DNA of 20,519 bases from a virus: IMG/VR virus record IMGVR_UViG_3300005295_000216, positions 1 to 20,519 of that record; one strand, written 5' to 3'. How positions within the stretch are numbered: the first letter of the stretch is position 1; each line of letters opens with the position of its first letter. Below the pieces are notes generated by a model, which ran no database searches, was not told the origin of the DNA, and worked only from the letters and a program-made list of their open reading frames with translations. Shown one piece after another: positions 3,276-14,537 of the stretch. The position numbers were made by a program, and so were the translations under genes.

Positions 3276-3402
3276 TCCGGTCGCGGCCAACCGCTTGCGG
3301 GCGCTGCGCTCACGTTGGTCGATCAAACTGCGCAAGTATTGGCACAGCAAGGAGCGCAACCGTTACGAGCGAGTGCGTCGTGTAGACTCGTCGCGTGGCT
3401 GA
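3241..3402 (+). CDS. Small basic protein (53 residues), unknown
   Basis: This ATG ORF overlaps the end of the preceding mini-gene by 35 bases in a different frame. It ends at TGA 3400-3402, overlapping the portal start by 8 bases (GTGGCTGA), the same type of junction as at 720 and 1627. The product is strongly basic (about 15 Lys/Arg against 4 Asp/Glu), with an N-terminal WYTLPPPLDP and a basic helical part (LRALRSRWSIKLRKYWHSK). Such charge suggests binding to nucleic acid or to an acidic partner. The ribosome site is weak. It fills an otherwise uncoded gap before the portal, which supports it, but a chance ORF is not excluded. Confidence 0.55.
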   Translation: MKSWYTLPPPLDPVAANRLRALRSRWSIKLRKYWHSKERNRYERVRRVDSSRG

Positions 3403-5467
3403 GGCTCGTCGCTCTAAGAAGGATAAGGAAGAGTTAGACGAGGCCGACTGGCTGACCGCCGATTTCGTCCAGGCGCTGTACGAATCGCGCCGATCAGACG
3501 GTGACGAGGCTCGCCTGCGGCGTGAGATGAACGCCATGCGCGACCTCGTAGACATGAACGTCAAGCCGAACATCCCGCAGGAGTACGAGGCCATCGCCCA
3601 GGAGATCAGGACGCCCTTCGTCAAGGACGCCTGGTTGCGGGTCGCTGGCAGCATGACGCAAAACGACCCCGTCCCACACATCGAGCCGGCTGACGACAAG
3701 GACGAGTACCGTCGCGCTGCCTCGATTGGCGAGCGGTGGACCGATGCCGCCTTCTACCAGATGAGCGATGAGATCGGTGACGACGTGATCTACGAGGGCG
3801 TCAAGGCTGTCATCCGTGACCGTGAGTCGGTCATCAAGGTGGTCTACCGGCCAGACGCCTGGGCGAGCTTCCCCGACCGCAAACGAACAGAGACGGCCGA
3901 CGAGTACCGCGCCCGCACCGAGCGATCCAAGAAATCGAGCCGCTTGCCCACGGCGTGGCGACTGATCGACCGCAAGAGCATGCTGTTTGAGGATGGTGAG
4001 TTTGGCGATGGCTGGTGCATCGAGTACGGCGAGTACCCGCGACCCTTGCTCGGGCGCGACTTCAAGATGGCGCTCGACCCGTATGGCAAGCTGGTGGACC
4101 CGGCTGTGCTGCTGGGCGGCACACCAACGGCACAGGGCGACTTTCGCGGTCAGGGCGCTCGCGCTGTCAAGATCGAATATTGGGATGTCGAGTGGTGGGC
4201 GGTCGTCATCGACGGCAATATGGCCCCGGGTTTTCCCAAGCCAAATCCGTATCGGGGCTCACCAAATAACGGACTTCCATACTTTCGGGCACGCATCATT
4301 GACAGCCCGATGCTGTCACTGCGCTACCTCGTTCCTGCTCTCGACTCGCTGCTTACCATGCATCTCAATTGGGCGTTCCTTGGGGCGTACCCGAACCCCA
4401 AGCTGACCTCGCAGCCCAACTCGACTGTGCCCAGCCTGGGCCTGGGCGCAGATGGCGGGGTGCCGGGCGGGGAAGACAACCAGCCGCCTGATTTCCAGTG
4501 GAAGCCGGGGCTGATGATCATCCCGCCACCCGGCTACGACTTCAATTTCGTTCAACCACCACCCATCGGCAACGACGTGGTAGTCATGGAGCAAAACTTA
4601 CGAGCACTGATCGACATTGCTGGCATTCCATCGGTTTTGCGGGGAGCGGCTGCTGCCGATGCCTCGGGGTACTTGGCCAATCAACTGATCACTGCCGCTT
4701 TGATCCATTACAAGCAGATGACAAAAGCCGTGCAGAGGCAATTCAGCGCCATAGGCAGCTTTCTATGGTGGATCGTTTCGGCAAAGGTAAAGCAAGAAGT
4801 ATTCGTATTAGAACAGACCGAAGAAATAGATCAAAAGACACGTAAAAAGAATGCCAAAAAGGCGTGGTTGTCGCTCACGCCTGATGGGCCGCTGACGACG
4901 ACGAGTGCACCTGTCACGCACTTCGCCAAATTTACCTACCGCATGCGTCCGGTGCTGCCGACCGACGAGCAGGCCAGGGCGATGATCGCCGTGCAGGCGA
5001 CCAACGCGCCGAAGCCGCTGTACGGCCGCAAGCGAGCGCTCGAAAAGTTCATGCAAGAGGAAGACCCGGAAGGGGTGCTCGATGAAATCTACGTCGAAAA
5101 CGTTCTGGACAACGATCCGACTGTCCACGCCACCATCGTGGGACGTGCATTACGGGAAGCTGGCTTCCCCGCGCCGATCCCCAACAACCCCGCTTCACAA
5201 CTTGTGGGGCCGAACGGACAGCCGCTCATCGGTGGTGGCACGGCTGCTCCGGGACCGCAAAACACCGAGCCGCCCGGCGGTGCCCCGTCACCCTTCTCCC
5301 CTGGCCCGAGTGCCAACGGGCAGCCCGGTATCCCCGGGCTCACCCAGCCGATCCAGCCGCCTCAGCCCGGCGGAGGTCCGAGCCGTGGTGGGCGGAATAG
5401 CAACGGGCTTAGTGCTCGCGGCGCTGGTGGTTATCCTGGGCAACCGGGCGGGAATCAGGGCCGTTGA
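3395..5467 (+). CDS. Portal protein
   Basis: This 690-residue protein begins at GTG 3395. It directly follows terL and two mini-genes, which is the expected place for the portal, the twelve-fold ring at the capsid vertex through which DNA is packaged and ejected. Length and character fit: a charged helical N-terminus, a mixed alpha/beta body with many Trp/Tyr/Pro residues (EYWDVEWWAVVIDG near residue 260), and a long-helix region (LRALIDIAGIPSVLRG, then LIHYKQMTKAVQRQFSAIG) typical of portal stem and wing. From about residue 596 the tail is low-complexity Gly/Pro/Gln. A short A/T-rich stretch lies at 4780-4870 in the helical part. The call rests on position, size and general resemblance to podovirus-type portals rather than a single diagnostic motif. 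Confidence 0.85.
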   Translation: MAEARRSKKDKEELDEADWLTADFVQALYESRRSDGDEARLRREMNAMRDLVDMNVKPNIPQEYEAIAQEIRTPFVKDAWLRVAGSMTQNDPVPHIEPADDKDEYRRAASIGERWTDAAFYQMSDEIGDDVIYEGVKAVIRDRESVIKVVYRPDAWASFPDRKRTETADEYRARTERSKKSSRLPTAWRLIDRKSMLFEDGEFGDGWCIEYGEYPRPLLGRDFKMALDPYGKLVDPAVLLGGTPTAQGDFRGQGARAVKIEYWDVEWWAVVIDGNMAPGFPKPNPYRGSPNNGLPYFRARIIDSPMLSLRYLVPALDSLLTMHLNWAFLGAYPNPKLTSQPNSTVPSLGLGADGGVPGGEDNQPPDFQWKPGLMIIPPPGYDFNFVQPPPIGNDVVVMEQNLRALIDIAGIPSVLRGAAAADASGYLANQLITAALIHYKQMTKAVQRQFSAIGSFLWWIVSAKVKQEVFVLEQTEEIDQKTRKKNAKKAWLSLTPDGPLTTTSAPVTHFAKFTYRMRPVLPTDEQARAMIAVQATNAPKPLYGRKRALEKFMQEEDPEGVLDEIYVENVLDNDPTVHATIVGRALREAGFPAPIPNNPASQLVGPNGQPLIGGGTAAPGPQNTEPPGGAPSPFSPGPSANGQPGIPGLTQPIQPPQPGGGPSRGGRNSNGLSARGAGGYPGQPGGNQGR

Positions 5468-5698: not shown

Positions 5699-6019
5699 AT
5701 GGCTAAGCACACGAAGGAAACGTTAAGCGACGGGCATCGTGACGAGATCGCACAACGAATGGTAGCGACGTTCGTGCGCGAGATGAAGTCAGACGTGACC
5801 ATCGGCCACCCCTGGATGGGCTTGAGCCAGACCCAACAGACAGACCTGGCCGAACTGATGTACGCAGAAGTACGACCGGTGGTAGACGAACTCGACGTGC
5901 TGGCTGGCATGGCCATCGACTTGGACGAGGAAAACGCCGAAGCGATGACGGCAGCCGCCAACCCCAAGCGGGCCAAGGCGACCAAGGACAAGGACGACGA
6001 TGACGGAGGGCCGAAATGA
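5699..6019 (+). CDS. Small acidic phage protein, unknown (106 residues)
   Basis: The ATG at 5699 follows the ribosome site AAAGGA. The product is soluble and mostly helical: DGHRDEIAQRMVATFVREMK, then a middle part with GLSQTQQTDLAELMYAEVRPVVDELDV, and a highly charged Lys/Asp tail (KATKDKDDDDGG). I do not recognise a family. The gene ends in ATGA shared with the next start, so it belongs to the coupled run of small genes after the portal. A head-completion or regulatory role cannot be told apart from the sequence. Confidence 0.75.
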   Translation: MAKHTKETLSDGHRDEIAQRMVATFVREMKSDVTIGHPWMGLSQTQQTDLAELMYAEVRPVVDELDVLAGMAIDLDEENAEAMTAAANPKRAKATKDKDDDDGGPK

Positions 6020-6228
6020 TGTTGCTCGGTCGTTCGGTCATCACGTGGATCGTGCTCGTGTTCGTGGCCGTGTGTGTGTTCATCCTGGCCAAGTGGTTAG
6101 TTCCGCTGCTGTTTGCCCTGATCGGTGTCGCCATTCCTGACCAGCAATCTACGATCCTGGCGCTGTTGATCGCTATCGGTGTTATGTTGGGTGGCTATAG
6201 CTGGCGTCGTGGTGAGCCGACACCATGA
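6016..6228 (+). CDS. Two-span small membrane protein, holin-like
   Basis: This 70-residue protein starts at the ATG in the previous stop (ATGA, 6016-6019). Two hydrophobic helices are evident, VITWIVLVFVAVCVFILAKW with the following VPLLFALIGVA region, and then STILALLIAIGVMLGGYSW, separated by a short polar turn (PDQQ). It ends with a charged tail (RRGEPTP). Size and two-helix topology match class II holins, which make the membrane lesions that release endolysins, but many unrelated phage membrane proteins look the same. No endolysin lies directly beside it. The closest candidate is the barrel protein at 720. Confidence 0.7.
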   Translation: MMLLGRSVITWIVLVFVAVCVFILAKWLVPLLFALIGVAIPDQQSTILALLIAIGVMLGGYSWRRGEPTP

Positions 6229-6242
6229 GTGAGGATGGGTGA
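6225..6242 (+). other. Possible five-codon relay minicistron
   Basis: An ATG overlaps the stop of the membrane gene (ATGA, 6225-6228) and reads M-S-E-D-G before a TGA at 6240-6242. That stop itself overlaps the GTG start of the next gene (GTGA, 6239-6242). The peptide is too short to matter as a product, but the arrangement would hand a terminating ribosome from one gene to the next, and its GAGG also serves as a ribosome site for the GTG. This is inference from sequence arrangement only. Confidence 0.25.
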
Positions 6243-6523
6243 GCGGAGGACAAGGGGGTCAGGACAAGCTCAGAGCCCGCCATGCGCGGGTGCAGTCGGT
6301 CATTGTCACCGCCAGCCCACCCACCAACATGGTCGTGTACGCCGGCTTCGTGTACGCCAACGCGGCGTCGGTGCCGGCGAACATGCTGTCGGTTCGCTCC
6401 GACACCTACTCGCTTGGCTCAGCCCCGGCAGCCGGCGTCAGGCGCATCGCGGTGATGTCGTTTTCGCTGTCGTCCCCCAACATCCCGCCGAACCTACGAC
6501 GGGTGGCCATCGTGCCGGAGTAG
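6239..6523 (+). CDS. Small unknown phage protein, beta-rich (94 residues)
   Basis: The GTG at 6239 has GAGG a few bases upstream. After a Gly/Gln/Arg-rich start (MSGGQGGQDKLRARHARVQ) the protein alternates short hydrophobic strands with turns: SVIVTASPP, MVVYAGFVYANAASVP, RRIAVMSFSLS, RRVAIVPE. This suggests a small beta domain, possibly a virion component. No family is recognised. It ends two bases before the next ATG. A long frame shared with the downstream gene also runs through this region but is unlikely to be coding. Confidence 0.65.
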   Translation: MSGGQGGQDKLRARHARVQSVIVTASPPTNMVVYAGFVYANAASVPANMLSVRSDTYSLGSAPAAGVRRIAVMSFSLSSPNIPPNLRRVAIVPE

Positions 6524-6525
6524 TC

Positions 6526-6816
6526 ATGGCTGAGCCAGAGCACGTCATCGAGCGGCGTTCCCGCCTGCTGTCGCAGAAGATGGCCTCGCGGGTGACCATG
6601 CTGCGCAACTTCATCGCCCCACCTGGCGCTCGCCCGCCGTTCACCAAGCAGATGCAAAACGACATGGCCTTGCAGTGGTGGAAGGTGCACCGCTACGACG
6701 AGATCGGCTCGCGGGTGCTGACCATGATGCAGCCAGCCGACATAGCTGAGCTTGACTCGGCGCTGATCGAGCGCCAGGTGGCCGAGCAAAACAGCGAGGG
6801 TCAGACGCTGGCATGA
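6526..6816 (+). CDS. Small helical phage protein, unknown (96 residues)
   Basis: This starts at ATG 6526, just after the preceding stop, and ends in ATGA shared with the next gene. The product is hydrophilic and helical, with a conserved-looking middle (MLRNFIAPPGARPPFTKQMQ, then MALQWWKVHRYDEIGSRVL) and an acidic C-terminal helix. The frame stays open far upstream, but the ATG at 6526 is chosen because the upstream part is arginine-rich antisense-like sequence overlapping the 6239 gene. Function is unknown. Confidence 0.7.
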   Translation: MAEPEHVIERRSRLLSQKMASRVTMLRNFIAPPGARPPFTKQMQNDMALQWWKVHRYDEIGSRVLTMMQPADIAELDSALIERQVAEQNSEGQTLA

Positions 6817-7076
6817 CGCTTGAAATACTTGTTTTATTACTGCTCGTTGTTGCTTTCATAGGCGTATTAATACTCATGTCAATGCTTGTCATTATAGTTC
6901 GAGAGTTTGGCCCACCGGTAGTGCGTACACAAGACCAGATGAGAGCAGTAGAACACAGTGCTGCAACGACTGGCCATACCCACACGCTGGCTGTCAACTC
7001 GACGCATGAAGAAATGGGCAAGCAAGTTGTCGTCAAGCGTTGCCAGTGCGGGCATGTTGTCCGAGAAGTGGTGTAA
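6813..7076 (+). CDS. Single-span membrane protein with a small cysteine motif (87 residues)
   Basis: This starts at the ATG in the previous stop (ATGA, 6813-6816). Residues 3-29 form one long hydrophobic helix (EILVLLLLVVAFIGVLILMS and onward). A soluble tail follows with His and Thr residues and ends in CQCGHVV, which has only two cysteines, so a metal site would need another partner or dimerisation. The coding DNA is notably A/T-rich compared with neighbours. Candidate roles are lysis accessory (inner-membrane spanin-like) or virion membrane contact. There is no specific evidence for either. Confidence 0.65.
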   Translation: MTLEILVLLLLVVAFIGVLILMSMLVIIVREFGPPVVRTQDQMRAVEHSAATTGHTHTLAVNSTHEEMGKQVVVKRCQCGHVVREVV

Positions 7077-7085
7077 TGTTGGCCC

Positions 7086-8900
7086 ATGACGGCTGGCCGA
7101 CAGACCGATAACCTGGGCGACCGTCTTTTTCGCGCTGTCCGCGCTATCGACCCGACTGCGCCGGCTGGCCCGCATCAGATGCTCGTCTCTGGCACCGTCA
7201 ATATCGGCGGCGGCGCTGTCGGTGGTGCTGGCGGCACGTCGATGGTCGATGACAACACCTTCACCCCGGCTGGCACGAGCATCACCCCGATGGGCGGCTA
7301 CGTTGGCGGGCGACAGGTAGCCAGCGGCCACGCTGGTGCGGTGGCGATGAGCGGCAGCGCCATCCTGCAAGTTCACGTTGTCGCTGGTGGGGCGGGTGGT
7401 GGCGCGGCCAACCTGACCGTCCAAGGCACAGCCGGTAACGATGTCAGCGTCGGCGTTGCCTCTGGCGCAGCCGGCGCTGCTGGCAACTGGCCGGTGCCGG
7501 TCGCATACGCCTCTGGCCGTTACCAGACCGTCAATCTAGGCACGCCAATCGGCATCTTTGGCTCGCTCAGCGGCGTGGCCACGGTTCACCTTGGCCTCCC
7601 GGCAACCGTCAACCTGGGCAGCATCCCGACCGTCAACCTGGGCCAGGGGACCGTCAATATCGGCAACGTCCCAGCCGTCACCGGCTCGGTCAGGGTGACC
7701 GTCCTGGGCGGCTCAGTGGGCGTGCTGCCGATTGGCGACTTCACGGTGTGGACGGCAAATGCGGCCGGCGGTGGCGGTTTCGCTTCTGTTGGCGTGTATG
7801 GCTCTGTGACCGGCTTGATGACGGTCAACCTGGCCAGCCATATCGACACGGTCAACTCAGCGGTGCGCGTCAACGTGGTTACCGGCGGTGCTGGTGGCGG
7901 CAACGCCAACCTGACCACGCGCGGCACGGCTGGTACCGACTTGCACGTTGGCCAAGCCTCAAACAACCTGGGCGCGTGGCCGAATTACGACGGTGGAATG
8001 TGGCTGCCGGTCATGTACCCAAGCGGCTATTACCCGACCGTCAACATCGCCGGAGGTGGAGCCGGAGGGGGCTTCGCCAGCGTTGCGGTGTATGGCTCGC
8101 CAGCCAACCCGGTGTACGCCATCGGATCGGTCAACGTTGTCAATGCCGTTGGCGTCTTCGGCTCAGTCAGCGTGACTGGATCAGTCAACATCGTGCCGCC
8201 AACGAACATGACCGTCTGGCTGGCCAATCAAAACGCAGGCTCCGGGTTTGCTAGCGTAGCTGTGTACGGCAGTCCGGCTAATCCGGTGTACGTCATCGGC
8301 TCTGTCAACGCTGTCGGTGGTGGTGGCTCTGTCGGCGTGACGCAGATTGGTGCGCCGTGGACGGTGACCGGGTCTGTCGGTGTCACTCCGCTCGCCGTCT
8401 TCACCGTCAATATGGGCATGGGCACAGTCAATGTCGGCAACATTGTTGGTATCACCGGCTCCGTGTCGATCCTGGGATCGGTCAACATCGGCGGTCAGCC
8501 GATCTCTATGGTCGGCTCCGTTGGCGTGACTCCGCTGGCGTCGTTCAGTCTTGGTGGTATTGTAGAGGTCGATACTCGCGCATCACTGACTGCCACACAG
8601 TGGATCATCTCCGGTGCTGCATCCGGGCAGTTTGTTGTTGCTGGCAGCGCACCAGCCGGAGTAAGAGTGCGTCTTAGCTCGTATCAGCTTATCGCTACAG
8701 GCACCGTGGACTTCCAGTGGATGAGCCCGAGTGGCGTGGCGATGTCCGGCTCCATGCGACTGCTGCCAGGTGCTGGCTTTGGCTTGGCCGGCGCATTCCC
8801 GAATGGACCAGTGCTGATCGGCTCGCAGCAATCCGCGATCTACATCCTGAGCGCTGGCACGCAAAACATCGGTGGTGTTGCCATAGGCTGGTTGGAATGA
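7086..8900 (+). CDS. Repetitive Gly/Val-rich fibre- or spike-like virion protein
   Basis: This 604-residue protein is built of short beta-forming repeats (TVNIG, TVNLG, GSVNIV, GSVGVTPLA) with many glycines. A longer unit containing FASVAVYGSPANPVY occurs at residues 330 and 388, with a diverged copy at 232 (FASVGVYGS). Near residues 55-73 it carries DDNTFTPAGTSITPMGGYV, a motif I know from metagenomic phage structural proteins. The last ~100 residues look like a compact beta-sandwich (VRVRLSSYQLIATGTVDFQW ... GVAIGWLE) of the type that ends phage fibre and decoration proteins, possibly for trimerisation. I infer an extended beta-structured surface protein, perhaps receptor-binding. Tail fibre versus head decoration cannot be decided. 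Confidence 0.7.
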   Translation: MTAGRQTDNLGDRLFRAVRAIDPTAPAGPHQMLVSGTVNIGGGAVGGAGGTSMVDDNTFTPAGTSITPMGGYVGGRQVASGHAGAVAMSGSAILQVHVVAGGAGGGAANLTVQGTAGNDVSVGVASGAAGAAGNWPVPVAYASGRYQTVNLGTPIGIFGSLSGVATVHLGLPATVNLGSIPTVNLGQGTVNIGNVPAVTGSVRVTVLGGSVGVLPIGDFTVWTANAAGGGGFASVGVYGSVTGLMTVNLASHIDTVNSAVRVNVVTGGAGGGNANLTTRGTAGTDLHVGQASNNLGAWPNYDGGMWLPVMYPSGYYPTVNIAGGGAGGGFASVAVYGSPANPVYAIGSVNVVNAVGVFGSVSVTGSVNIVPPTNMTVWLANQNAGSGFASVAVYGSPANPVYVIGSVNAVGGGGSVGVTQIGAPWTVTGSVGVTPLAVFTVNMGMGTVNVGNIVGITGSVSILGSVNIGGQPISMVGSVGVTPLASFSLGGIVEVDTRASLTATQWIISGAASGQFVVAGSAPAGVRVRLSSYQLIATGTVDFQWMSPSGVAMSGSMRLLPGAGFGLAGAFPNGPVLIGSQQSAIYILSAGTQNIGGVAIGWLE

Positions 8901-9514
8901 CTCGTCCACTGTATGTTATGCCTGTCACCACTGCGGACGGGCCACACGGACCAACACGCACATCGAAGTATCTGTCCGAATTCAGCACCTTCAGCTACGG
9001 CATCTTTCAGTACGGAGCCGAGCCGTGGTGCATGGCCGGCGTGACTGACATTTCTGTTGCCGCAGACGCATCGCTTGTTGCCCACCCCGATGTGTTCAAG
9101 CTGCCTGACGATCTCGACCAGACGATGGGCTCGGTCGGCAACCGCAACCAGGCCAGAAATGCGCTTGAAGCAGTCAACATGCCGGGCACGTGGATACAGA
9201 CGAGCGACACGTACAGGACTGTCGTCCGCTTCATTGGTTCGCTGTGTCTTTACATGGGCTGCTTCAACGACCACTACGACTTGCCTGTAATCTTCGACGG
9301 TACAACGACACTTAGCACGCTCTTCAGCGCCTTGACTCAGTCGCAGCGCGATGCCATGCAGGGGTGCGCAGACTATTTCGGCCTCGACGGATCGTCGCTG
9401 ATCGGCAGCAACTCGTTGCGCATAATCCTCAAGGCGATTGGTGACGACTTCTCCGCGCAATACGCATTGGGCACCAATCCAATGACGCGTCTTGATCTGG
9501 CGGGGCCGCTGTGA
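8897..9514 (+). CDS. Unknown virion-region protein (205 residues)
   Basis: The start is the ATG overlapping the stop of the fibre-like gene (ATGA, 8897-8900). An earlier in-frame ATG at 8717 lies inside that gene and is rejected. The protein is soluble, with aromatic- and glycine-rich beta-like N-terminal parts (YLSEFSTFSYGIFQYGAEPW), an asparagine-rich middle and a helical C-terminal half (LSTLFSALTQSQRDAMQGCA). I recognise no domain or catalytic motif. Its place between two probable surface proteins, with four-base overlaps on both sides, suggests it is made with them and may be part of the same virion structure or its assembly. Confidence 0.75.
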   Translation: MTRPLYVMPVTTADGPHGPTRTSKYLSEFSTFSYGIFQYGAEPWCMAGVTDISVAADASLVAHPDVFKLPDDLDQTMGSVGNRNQARNALEAVNMPGTWIQTSDTYRTVVRFIGSLCLYMGCFNDHYDLPVIFDGTTTLSTLFSALTQSQRDAMQGCADYFGLDGSSLIGSNSLRIILKAIGDDFSAQYALGTNPMTRLDLAGPL

Positions 9515-10134
9515 CGACGCTGTTTACTGACGCTTTCACCCGCGCCGATGGCACGTTGGATAGCACCAATTGGGACACATTGACCGGTGAAGCGAGCCTG
9601 CAAATCGCCTCCAATCATCTGGTGCCGAGCGCGTTCAACGCTGACAACTGTGATTACGTCAACAGCACCGGTGTGGCATCTATCCCCAACGATCAATGGG
9701 CGCAAATTACGCTGCTCAATCCAACGTCGTCATCCGGAGGTGGCGGCGAGGGAATCGGCATCGAGTTGCGTTGTGCCACTGCCGCCCGGACAGCCTATCG
9801 CTGCCTGGCTGGCAACACCACGATCACCTTTTCAAAAATGACTGACTCTGGTACGTACAGCGGCGTGATTGCATCGGCAACTGGCCTGACAATTGTTGCT
9901 AATGATGTGCTCTACGCTGAGGTGCAGGGCACCACGGTCATCATCAAGCTCAACGGCGTGACGAAGATTACGCAGACCGATTCGAGCATCGCCTCTGGCC
10001 GCTTTGGTATAGGCCATTCCAGCGACACGACGGGCACACCGCAGTTAGACGACTTCACCGGCGGCGACTTTGCTGGTGGGGCCGCTGCTGTTGCGCCTTC
10101 ACGCAGGCGCACCCTTGTCGGCGCGGGCGTTTAG
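9511..10134 (+). CDS. Concanavalin/LamG-like beta-sandwich protein
   Basis: This 207-residue protein starts at GTG 9511 overlapping the previous stop (GTGA), with GGCGGGG upstream. It begins LFTDAFTRADGTLDSTNWDT, the classic opening of LamG/concanavalin-like modules (DxFxRADGxLxxxNW). It continues with alternating strands, including an inner-sheet segment LYAEVQGTTVIIKLNGVTKI, and closes with RFGIGHSSDTTGTPQLDDF, again typical of the fold. The C-terminal tail is Ala-rich and basic. Such domains in phages bind glycans or decorate capsids and fibres. There is no signal peptide or enzyme motif. Sugar binding is inferred from the fold. Confidence 0.8.
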   Translation: MTTLFTDAFTRADGTLDSTNWDTLTGEASLQIASNHLVPSAFNADNCDYVNSTGVASIPNDQWAQITLLNPTSSSGGGGEGIGIELRCATAARTAYRCLAGNTTITFSKMTDSGTYSGVIASATGLTIVANDVLYAEVQGTTVIIKLNGVTKITQTDSSIASGRFGIGHSSDTTGTPQLDDFTGGDFAGGAAAVAPSRRRTLVGAGV

Positions 10135-10157
10135 CGTATGCTAGTGGGCGCACGCTG

Positions 10158-13100
10158 ATGGCTCCACGCTACTCGTACATCCCGATGGAGGCGCTCGACC
10201 AGGCTGATCTTCAGCAGCAGGCCAGGGATTGGGCTGATCAGCAACGCAAGCAGATTGCCGAGGATTGGGCCAGGTCGAATGTACCCGACCCTTTAGCCGG
10301 CCTGGGCGGTCAGGACCCGTACCTGAGCCAGCTAAATTCCAGCCTCGCAACGCCAACCCTCGCCCCGCCGGCGCTCGTAACACCTCCCGCCCCAAGCGCT
10401 AACCGGCCGAGCGTCCTCACGCCCAGCGTTGATGAATTAGCGCCAAGCCTGGGCGGGCCGGTCAAGAGCGTCAAGCCTGGTAGCTCGCTCAACGACATCA
10501 GCCAGTTTGGCGACCAGACGCTGACGGAGGCTGAGGCATACGCGGCGTGTGGTCCGGCGGCTGCTGTCCGACTGGCCAGCGTGTACGGCAATCAGATTCC
10601 CCTGCGGGCTGCGCTGGACGCTGCCAAGCAAACCAACTGGACGGCCGGCGGCGGCATGAATGGCGTCCAGAACGAGCAGAACCTGCTCACCAACCTGGGC
10701 ATCCACACCAAGCTGGACGCGAGCCCGACGCAGGAGAAGGTGATTGCTGACGCGCTCACCGGCAACCCGGTCACCATCAGCACCAATCGCCACTACTTCA
10801 CCGTCTCTGGCTACGACGCGGAGAAGGGCTTGTACGTTGGCCGCAGCGGCTCGGACCTCAAGGGTGGCTCTGAGTGGCTGTCGTGGGACTCGATCAGTCG
10901 CCTGGGTGGTGGCATCAATGGGGCGCTGTTCGTCAACAACCCCAACTCTGAGATGGACTCACCGCAAACAAAGATTGCGCAGGGCGACCTCAAGGGCGCA
11001 CTGGTGGACTACGCTCGCCAGGCAGCCAAGAAGGTCGGCATTGACCCGGACATCTTCGTGCGCCAGATCAATCAGGAGTCCGGATTCGATCCGAACGCTG
11101 GCAGTCCGGCCGGTGCGCAGGGCATCGCGCAGATCGTGCCGAAGTGGCACCCCGGAGTGGACACCAGCGACCCGAAGGCCAGCCTGGATTACGCTGCCGA
11201 CCTGATGCGCTCGCATCTGCAACATTACGGCGGCGACTATTCCAAGGCGCTCGCTGCGTACAACGCCGGAGCCGGGGCGGTGCAGCAGTACGGTGGCGTA
11301 CCGCCATTTGAAGAGACGCAGACATACGTCAAGAACATCCTGGGTGGCGCAAAAGATCAGCTTGCCAAGGTCCCCGGTGACATCGCGGAGTCACTCTTCC
11401 AGCAGGGCGACATGAACCGCACCACGGTGCGCCAGACGGGTGAATTCACCACCGGGGTCAACGCTAGCTTGGAACAGCAGCAGCGCGAGGCGAACCCGAT
11501 GATGAAAATCATCCCGGGCATGGGTGGTGATCCGATGCGGGCGATTTCGTCTGGCCTGGGCGCTGCTGGGATGCCCAGCGCAGAGGAACTCGGTGCGCCG
11601 CAGATTCCCACTCCATTTGGCTCTGTCCCACTTGGCCCGCGTGAGTTGATTGGCTTCGCTGCCGGCATGCAAGTGCCGCAGGGGCCAGCCGGCAAGCTTG
11701 GGGCGGGTGCCAGTAAGGCGATCACGAAGTCTGCCGGGGCCGTGGCTGCCTCTGCCGGCAAGAGCACCCTCGAACGCACCTTTGACATGTTCGAGCGCAA
11801 CCGCCAGATGCGTGATCCGGGCTTGCTTGCACGAGCCGGTCAGACGCTATCCACGTTGGGTGTCAATCTGGAACGGCAGTTGGCCGACCGCTACGTCGAT
11901 CTTAACCGGCTGGGACACAAAGTCGAGGTTGCGGTGTCCACGTATCTCGGCAGGCTGCCGGGTGCTGAGCAGCGGGTGAAGACGGAATTTACGCCGCTGT
12001 ATAAGGCGTTAGGCGATGGCACCGGGCAAAACGGTCGCTCGATGATCGACAACTTCAACGCCTTCGTCAAGCATCAGCGCGACCTCGAAGTCGCCCTGGC
12101 GAAGTCGCCTCAGGTCACGCAGGTTATTCCGGGTGGGGTTACGCAGACCGGACCCACTCAATTTACGCGGACGCAGACAAAGGTGGCCACCGGCCCGAGC
12201 GGGCTGCGTAGCGCCTCCGCCGGCTCCACTGGCGCGTCAGACGCACAGGGCGCATTGATCGAGTTGCAGGAGTCACTGACTCCGAAAGAGTGGCAGCAAC
12301 TGCTGGACGCTGACAAGGTCCGTCAGGGTGCGCTCGACAGGTTGCTTGATGACCGTGTTGCAAGCGGGTTACTCAGCAACGAGGATCGTCAGATGTTGCT
12401 GGAGATATATCCGCATTACAACCCGACCGTGGCGATGCGTAATGTTGACGCGGAGATCATGCGGACTGGTGGCGGCAAACGCATGACGCAGTTAACCAAC
12501 AACTTTCGTAGGTTGATGGCCGATGGCATCAAGGACGACACCGAAGAGCCGGCACTGAGTGCCATCCGTGGCCTGATGCGTGGCGATCTGGACATCCGCC
12601 GCAACAACACGGTGCGGGCCATCGTGGAGGACCTGAAGACCGCTGGCAAGTTGGGCAGGATCGAGCTTTCGACCTATCCCGGCGAGCGTGCTGGCAAGTT
12701 GCAGTGGTACGAGGACGGCAAGCGATTGATGGCTGATGTGCCGGAAGAAGTTGACCGCGCAGCCAAGGCGCTTGATGACACCAGGCTGGGGTTGGCTGGA
12801 CGCATTGCATCGTGGTCCAACGCTCCGCTGCGCACTGGCGCTGTCGTTCTTAGCCCGCCGTTCTGGCTGGTCAACGCGGCTGCCGACTACATCACGCTGT
12901 TTATCCGAGAGGGTGGCAGCGCGGCCGGTCGTGTGCCGCGCATGTGGGCCGAAGCCGCTCGGCAGGGGCCGCTGTATCAGGAGTTGGCCAGGTCCGGCGG
13001 CATGATGTCTACGCTCTCGCGCACCGGCGAGCATGCTGACGTGGAGAAGCTGATCCAGCAGTCTGGCGGGCTGGTGCTCAAGAACATGCCGCAGTGGCAG

Positions 13101-14537
13101 CGGCTGCTGAAGGCTGCCAATCCGCTCAACCCGATCAGGAAGATTGGTGAGGTAATCGAGCTTGCACCGCGCCTGGCAACGTTCGAGGCGCAGCTTGAGC
13201 GCAGCGCTCCGGGGAAGGGCACTAAGGCCCTGTCTACGTTGGGCGGACCCGGATTCGGACATGGCTCAACGGCCGAGGCAGCGATGGCTGCCCGCCGCGC
13301 CACCGTTGACTTCGCCCGGTCCGGCCAGTTGATCAGGACGGTCAATCCACTGGTGCTGTTCTTGAACGCTCGCGTGCAGGGCACGTTGCAAGTTGGTCGC
13401 ACACTGCGCGACAACCCCAACAGCAGATGGCGACTGGCTTCCGTGCTGGCTCCGGTTGTCGCCGCGCACGCCTGGAATGTCACTAACTTTCCCGAGGAAT
13501 ACGGGGACATTCCGGATTGGGAGAAGGACAGCTTTGTCCCTGTCATCACTGGTCATGGCACCAAAGATGAAAAGGGGAAATTTACCAACATCCCGCGCAT
13601 TAGTATTCCACTACGTGAGTGGGCGATGTTTACCGTTCCATTCCGCGCGGTACTGAACAAGATGACCGGCGCTGATGCGCGTAATGTGTTGCAACTGGCT
13701 AGCGATACATTGCAAACCACCGGTCCGGTGTCCGGTGAATCAGCTACCGCAGGCGTTGGTGGCCTGATTCCTGCTCCAGCACGCACGCCATTGGAGCTTG
13801 CCACCAATCAGAAGTTCTTCACTGGTGCGCCCATTGAGCCGGAGACGATGCGCAATCTGCCGCCGTCAGCCAAATACACAGACCGCACGACCAATGTCGC
13901 ACAAGGCTTGTCATGGGCCAGCCGCAACGCTCCGGGTCCGTTCAAGTCAACTATCAGCCCGACGCAAATGGACTTCATCATTCAGGAGAACCTGGCCGGG
14001 CTTGGCCGCTTCCTGACCGGTGACCGCATAAATCCGCTTAGCTCTATCTATCGCACTTCTGCTGGGCAGACAGAGCAGAACACTTTCAAGCTGATGGACA
14101 AGCAGATTGCTGATATGCGTGAGAAGGTGGCCGATCAGACCAGGCAAGACCCTGAGTTTGCCAATGCGACCAAAGACCGCCAGCAGCAAATGCTGCGTCA
14201 GGACCAGATTCAACTGGAAGAGACGCTCAAGGAGAAGTACGGGGTAGAGCCTAAAGAGAAGGACTACGGTCTGCCTAACAAATACCGTGGTGTTACCGAT
14301 CCTGCCAAGCAATTGCAGATTGATAAAGCGATAAGCAAATACGACAACTGGCGGGCGGAATTGCGGTTGCGGCCGTCTGAACGTAGTGCGCCAAAGCCAA
14401 CCCCTGAAGAGCAACGCTTGGCTGCGGTCTACGGTCGAGAGCGCATGCGCAACCCCACCCTGACGCGGGTACGACAGCAGCAGCGGCGTGCGCAGGACGC
14501 TCGGGCGGGCCGTGTTACCGAGCTAGCTCGGCAGTAG
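10158..14537 (+). CDS. Giant virion protein: cysteine peptidase + lytic transglycosylase + long internal region
   Basis: This protein has 1459 residues. Residues about 115-250 form a C39/papain-like cysteine peptidase module with candidate catalytic C131 (AYAACGPAAAV), H212 (TNRHYFTVSGY) and D233. Residues about 280-395 form an SLT-type lytic transglycosylase with catalytic E307 (INQESGF), AQGIAQIVP and AYNAG (367-371). The remaining ~1050 residues are mostly helical with a few hydrophobic stretches (PPFWLVNAAADYITLF near 895, VNPLVLFLNARVQG near 1060). They recall large polyvalent or internal virion proteins of podoviruses, such as the T7 gp16 type. The likely role is ejection: entering the cell envelope with the DNA and locally opening peptidoglycan. 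The start ATG lacks a clear ribosome site. The large C-terminal part has no certain family assignment. Confidence 0.85.
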   Translation: MAPRYSYIPMEALDQADLQQQARDWADQQRKQIAEDWARSNVPDPLAGLGGQDPYLSQLNSSLATPTLAPPALVTPPAPSANRPSVLTPSVDELAPSLGGPVKSVKPGSSLNDISQFGDQTLTEAEAYAACGPAAAVRLASVYGNQIPLRAALDAAKQTNWTAGGGMNGVQNEQNLLTNLGIHTKLDASPTQEKVIADALTGNPVTISTNRHYFTVSGYDAEKGLYVGRSGSDLKGGSEWLSWDSISRLGGGINGALFVNNPNSEMDSPQTKIAQGDLKGALVDYARQAAKKVGIDPDIFVRQINQESGFDPNAGSPAGAQGIAQIVPKWHPGVDTSDPKASLDYAADLMRSHLQHYGGDYSKALAAYNAGAGAVQQYGGVPPFEETQTYVKNILGGAKDQLAKVPGDIAESLFQQGDMNRTTVRQTGEFTTGVNASLEQQQREANPMMKIIPGMGGDPMRAISSGLGAAGMPSAEELGAPQIPTPFGSVPLGPRELIGFAAGMQVPQGPAGKLGAGASKAITKSAGAVAASAGKSTLERTFDMFERNRQMRDPGLLARAGQTLSTLGVNLERQLADRYVDLNRLGHKVEVAVSTYLGRLPGAEQRVKTEFTPLYKALGDGTGQNGRSMIDNFNAFVKHQRDLEVALAKSPQVTQVIPGGVTQTGPTQFTRTQTKVATGPSGLRSASAGSTGASDAQGALIELQESLTPKEWQQLLDADKVRQGALDRLLDDRVASGLLSNEDRQMLLEIYPHYNPTVAMRNVDAEIMRTGGGKRMTQLTNNFRRLMADGIKDDTEEPALSAIRGLMRGDLDIRRNNTVRAIVEDLKTAGKLGRIELSTYPGERAGKLQWYEDGKRLMADVPEEVDRAAKALDDTRLGLAGRIASWSNAPLRTGAVVLSPPFWLVNAAADYITLFIREGGSAAGRVPRMWAEAARQGPLYQELARSGGMMSTLSRTGEHADVEKLIQQSGGLVLKNMPQWQRLLKAANPLNPIRKIGEVIELAPRLATFEAQLERSAPGKGTKALSTLGGPGFGHGSTAEAAMAARRATVDFARSGQLIRTVNPLVLFLNARVQGTLQVGRTLRDNPNSRWRLASVLAPVVAAHAWNVTNFPEEYGDIPDWEKDSFVPVITGHGTKDEKGKFTNIPRISIPLREWAMFTVPFRAVLNKMTGADARNVLQLASDTLQTTGPVSGESATAGVGGLIPAPARTPLELATNQKFFTGAPIEPETMRNLPPSAKYTDRTTNVAQGLSWASRNAPGPFKSTISPTQMDFIIQENLAGLGRFLTGDRINPLSSIYRTSAGQTEQNTFKLMDKQIADMREKVADQTRQDPEFANATKDRQQQMLRQDQIQLEETLKEKYGVEPKEKDYGLPNKYRGVTDPAKQLQIDKAISKYDNWRAELRLRPSERSAPKPTPEEQRLAAVYGRERMRNPTLTRVRQQQRRAQDARAGRVTELARQ

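Follow-up and report, generated by a model that had tools for sequence, protein, structure and literature searches.

Phage proteins that combine the LPD38 domain (large polyvalent protein associated domain 38) with lysozyme-type domains represent a phage-only polyvalent architecture and are predicted to be injected with the DNA (Iyer et al., 2017; PMC5512222). Polyvalent proteins are suggested to undergo self-processing by peptidases that they contain, for which the survey lists four superfamilies (zincin, assemblin-like, DD and LonC), none of the cysteine type (PMC5512222). In phage T7, the N-terminal transglycosylase of gp16 is needed for entry through a highly cross-linked wall (PMC8954989). 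The gene described here is located on the IMG/VR viral record IMGVR_UViG_3300005295_000216, the whole 20,519-base stretch of which was analysed and is referred to as the window. Its features are as follows.

10158..14537, + strand: whole gene, 1459 amino acids; ATG start, the sole start codon after the preceding in-frame stop
10500..10955, + strand: C39-like papain-fold peptidase module, residues 115-266, from profile, residue counts, AlphaFold and PDB matches
10503-10505, + strand: Q116, conserved
10548-10550, + strand: C131, conserved
10791-10793, + strand: H212, conserved
10845-10847, + strand: S230, conserved
10854-10856, + strand: D233, mostly conserved
11010..11306, + strand: lytic transglycosylase SLT domain, residues 285-383, Pfam SLT E 6.4e-18
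11076-11078, + strand: E307, the SLT catalytic residue, unchanged in all 46 distinct relatives
11370..12317, + strand: poorly conserved linker, approximately residues 405-720, from alignment and model confidence
12330..14012, + strand: conserved helical body, residues 725-1285, phrog_9854 E 2.5e-21
13494..14018, + strand: LPD38, residues 1113-1287, Pfam PF18857 E 4.4e-20

A single open frame of 1459 codons, as noted in the preliminary description, occupies exactly positions 10158-14537 of the window. Given the base composition of the window, an open run of this length would arise by chance with a probability of about 3e-21, and the GC content at the three codon positions (0.636/0.482/0.722) is skewed as for a coding gene; the ORF is genuine. 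No clear ribosome-binding site was seen upstream of it. The residues previously singled out as catalytic, C131, H212, D233 and E307, were all present under those numbers in the translation.

The peptidase of the window itself gave a weak single-sequence match to Pfam C39_2 (PF13529; residues 126-226, E 0.038), its 15 bits falling below the curated cut-off of 24. Most relatives scored better than the window copy; L113 (29.9 bits), whose module is 44% identical to that of the window over 147 residues, and L044 (25.1 bits) were above the cut-off, and C39_2 was matched at E 0.01 by 39/46 and 12/16 relatives in two sets. Direct searches of viral contigs with the full protein or the peptidase alone returned no relatives, the patterns used being too specific. 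A DNA pattern on the peptidase Cys motif identified 107 viral contigs, nearly all of which encode long proteins with the same module close to the N-terminus. Because this pattern itself selects for the cysteine, the search was repeated with a pattern for a distant motif, which added 20 new contigs; the cysteine was kept in 15 of the 15 that included the Cys region, even where the neighbouring residues differed. A profile of the module had 127 matches. The module is present in more than 120 environmental phage contigs and had no match among 50,697 phage genome records, so the lineage appears to be largely uncultured. Two further occurrences were observed: L057 (4000-5037) encodes a tandem pair of C39-like modules in one protein (residues 147-294 and 337-482), and L113 (559-1359) encodes the same module as a stand-alone 266-amino-acid C39_2 protein on a Chloroflexi MAG contig, adjoining the cellular genes for rubrerythrin and macroglobulin.

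Residue counts over distinct sequences showed Q116 (106/106), C131 (113/113), H212 (107/107) and S230 (107/107) to be invariant, with D233 kept in 100 of 105 and replaced by Ala in the other five. No scored homologue had lost Q116, C131, H212 or E307. The peptidase triad C131/H212/D233 had been regarded as intact, which stands for C131 and H212; given the five alanines at D233, the C/H/D triad as earlier stated is uncertain, and sequence spacing suggests that the usual C39 Asp position would lie closer to S230. The same substitution at the proposed third triad residue would suit a module that is inactive and has a wall-binding or structural role. Such a role is very improbable in view of the invariance of Q116, C131 and H212 and the retention of C131 among relatives recovered with the pattern lacking the Cys.

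An AlphaFold model of residues 108-268 (pLDDT 92.4, pTM 0.87) predicted a papain-like fold. Foldseek ranked the ComA C39 peptidase first (E 2.7e-4), and VIA-align ranked the pseudomurein endoisopeptidase PeiR first (Z 15.0 over 136 residues, 2.6 A) and ComA C39 second (Z 13.7). ComA, PCAT1 and a B. anthracis C39-like protein were all among the top fold matches, which also included papain-like contact-dependent toxin domains. A profile search of the PDB by sequence revealed nothing relevant for either the peptidase or the body. As PeiR leads ComA, a signal-peptide processing protease, by just 1.3 Z, the fold alone does not decide the substrate. Together, the relatives and the predicted fold confirm the putative peptidase as a C39-like papain-fold module.

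The SLT assignment (PF01464) was firm, with 64.9 bits against a cut-off of 21.3; together with the invariance of E307 this agrees with the proposal of an intact transglycosylase. Against PHROGs, residues 284-555 matched phrog_342 (internal virion protein with endolysin domain), mainly through the SLT domain. A glycan cutter adjoins the peptidase in about 60 relatives where one was detectable; the SLT domain comes first in 54 relatives of the peptidase module, and glucosaminidase is the partner in 21 of the 46 members without a detected SLT domain. These SLT and glucosaminidase counts were taken from Pfam and the SLT profile, because an iterated glucosaminidase profile drifted into SLT. Among the C39 carriers found, only the window and L023 have the peptidase first. 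We considered whether the order of peptidase followed by glycosidase was unique to the window and rejected this, as a glucosaminidase-like domain follows the peptidase in L023 and a glucosaminidase follows M23 in L192. Judged from these sequences, domain order is swappable, and the order of peptidase and then SLT seen in the window is rare.

The remainder of the protein had been described as lacking a firm family, which proved wrong: LPD38 was identified at residues 1113-1287 with a score of 73 bits (curated cut-off 27), and phrog_9854 extends across 725-1285. An alignment search with the body revealed relatives in at least 293 viral contigs, and the body is approximately 25% identical in isolated phages, for example, the Bacillus Page group and Pelagibacter podoviruses. 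A structure search of the remainder, with a body model of 1055 residues (mean pLDDT 68.7), matched many viral LPD38 proteins in BFVD (E down to 3e-23) and did not yield a relative in the PDB, where nothing was significant (best E 0.29; best VIA Z 5.6) and long models are weakly tested; no solved relative of the body was thus found, which does not by itself show a new fold. The linker preceding the body has no invariant columns before residue 333 of alignment A6, and the first ~150 residues of its model are mostly below pLDDT 50, followed by helical structure. The gene is accordingly classed, by sequence, as a phage-type LPD38 'polyvalent protein', in which SLT domain, C39-like peptidase and body unite two disparate enzymatic domains in one chain. 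Other layouts were also seen. L144, L210 and other members of A5 encode LPD38 proteins that lack the C39-like peptidase and have ddrB-ParB, MuF_C, ADP-ribosyltransferase, PBECR3 or zeta-toxin domains within the N-terminal part, and in L033 the LPD38 protein extends across two overlapping frames (5814-11114 and 10895-12184), representing a frameshift or a sequencing error.

Among 13 distinct close relatives by body sequence, the peptidase was C39-like in 10, M23 in two (L167 and L192, in both together with glucosaminidase) and NlpC/P60 in one (L136); the alignment behind this comparison was built from C39 carriers and the replacements rest on three contigs. The protein of L136 (4434-8027) has a polyvalent layout in which LPD38 occurs with NlpC/P60 and a GNAT acetyltransferase domain. 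NlpC/P60 and M23 enzymes are mostly peptidoglycan endopeptidases. The replacement of the C39-like module by unrelated wall-type peptidases argues that its job is to cut wall peptides, and it is the strongest evidence for the suggestion, made in the preliminary description and still the best-supported reading, that both kinds of peptidoglycan bond are attacked at DNA entry.

It is fairly unlikely that the cysteine peptidase has a protein substrate instead of peptidoglycan, whether it would release units of its own polyprotein once injected or cleave a protein of the host, in what would be a large lineage of uncultured phages. The first of these possibilities is that the module is a built-in protease dividing the polyprotein into separate working units at assembly or after injection. 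A precedent is the function suggested for the zincin metallopeptidases of other polyvalent proteins (PMC5512222); peptides are processed by C39 enzymes, including ComA, which was among the top fold matches, and the window protein contains no HExxH zincin motif, so that no other processing enzyme is visible. We nevertheless regard this possibility as improbable, since NlpC/P60 or M23, families not known for polyprotein processing, take the place of the module, a substitution that favours wall cutting at DNA entry; moreover, there is no conserved site between the enzymes and the body, and the peptidase is always N-terminal and usually adjoins a wall glycosidase. The second possibility, that the peptidase is injected as an effector and, after DNA entry, cleaves a protein of the host such as one of defence or regulation, would fit the injected effectors of other polyvalent proteins, the GNAT, ADP-ribosyltransferase, ParB or zeta-toxin domains in relatives of the window protein and the contact-dependent toxin domains among the fold matches. 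Little credence is given to it here, because SLT or glucosaminidase adjoins the module, wall endopeptidases replace it and one type of module has long been conserved, as opposed to the turnover expected for effectors.

The LPD38 gene lies among phage structural genes. The window, which is probably a genome fragment, encodes a large terminase (phrog_38) and a major head protein (phrog_1357), as well as the following syntenic partner.

3395..5467, + strand: likely portal gene, named by position and synteny

This portal candidate had no Pfam or PHROG match. A homologue was present in 40 of the fetched loci and, in those listed, is located on the same strand and upstream of the gene for the LPD38 protein. 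A near search of phages with the whole window gave no match. Positions 7086-8900 encode a fibre-like protein of 604 amino acids made of recurring GSVGV/TVNLG-type motifs, for which no Pfam or PHROG match and, using TRF, no tandem array in the DNA was found. In Pelagibacter phage Lederberg, tail-tube genes are followed by the genes for an internal virion protein and a 589-amino-acid protein, the LPD38 gene and a tail fibre gene; this matches the T7 order 14-15-16-17, with the LPD38 gene in the position of gp16.

It had also been proposed that the peptidase might process virion proteins as a maturation protease. Nothing supported this: a conserved cleavage site was not apparent, and the family of the capsid, phrog_1357, resembles those of phages not known to need a protease. 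Neither a separate maturation protease nor an endolysin was seen within the 20.5-kb fragment, as might be expected if the protein were the capsid maturation protease or acted in host lysis late in infection. Both functions are extremely doubtful, given the probable incompleteness of the window, the capsid match, the location of LPD38 proteins among structural genes and the presence in Bacillus phage Page of a separate holin and endolysin beside the LPD38 gene.

On this evidence the protein is probably an LPD38 entry protein, whose peptide and glycan cutters together open the wall during DNA entry. The LPD38 body (approximately residues 725-1290) would be carried in the particle, as the whole protein probably is, and would enter the host envelope together with the DNA, as T7 gp16 does. 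There the N-terminal enzyme pair would open the peptidoglycan: lytic transglycosylation by the SLT domain would sever the glycan strands, whilst a peptide bond of the stem or cross-bridge would be broken by the C39-like cysteine peptidase. Counting against wall cutting at entry are the relatives without a detectable glycan cutter and the location of the LPD38 gene of the window outside a T7 gene order.

Should this entry role be correct, the apparent repertoire of enzymes injected by phages would gain a papain-fold peptidase. The swapping of C39-like peptidases with NlpC/P60 or M23, and of SLT with glucosaminidase, provides a natural experiment on how phages fit their wall-cutting enzymes to their hosts. 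Both modules are small and accessible to experiment; if active, they would be potential wall hydrolases of a kind that has received little study.

Compared with known systems, T7 gp16 resembles the window protein in length (1318 versus 1459 amino acids), in a wall-cutting transglycosylase near the N-terminus and in a helical remainder, but has no peptidase. No sequence match was found between gp16 and the body of the window protein, the phrog_342 match lying mainly over the SLT domain. Both kinds of bond are cut by the tail-knob protein gp13 of phi29, which carries a lysozyme domain in addition to a peptidase. Like the window protein as interpreted here, gp13 is a wall-degrading protein of the virion, and its peptidase is an M23 D,D-endopeptidase (PMC9662197); it differs in its enzyme families, its much smaller size and its location at the tail tip in place of an LPD38 body. 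The best fold match, PeiR, belongs with PeiW and PeiP to the lysins of archaeal viruses, Cys/His/Asp cell-wall peptidases (PMC4592898) that differ from the window module in sequence (12% identity), in acting on pseudomurein instead of peptidoglycan and in lacking fusion to a virion body. Peptidases of the C39/C39_2 group (ComA, PCAT1, PF13529) share the fold and the Q/C/H arrangement, and many relatives match PF13529, whereas the window module has no ABC transporter and no known leader-peptide substrate; no report of C39 peptidases in phage particles was found in the literature searched. The surveyed LPD38 polyvalent proteins (PMC5512222) also have an N-terminal lysozyme-type domain, a long variable middle, LPD38 near the C-terminus and a structural gene neighbourhood; an example is gp69 of Burkholderia phage JC1, in which an LT-like domain occurs together with LPD38 (PMC9144972). 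To this known class the window protein adds a C39-like cysteine peptidase, of a superfamily absent from the list in that survey.
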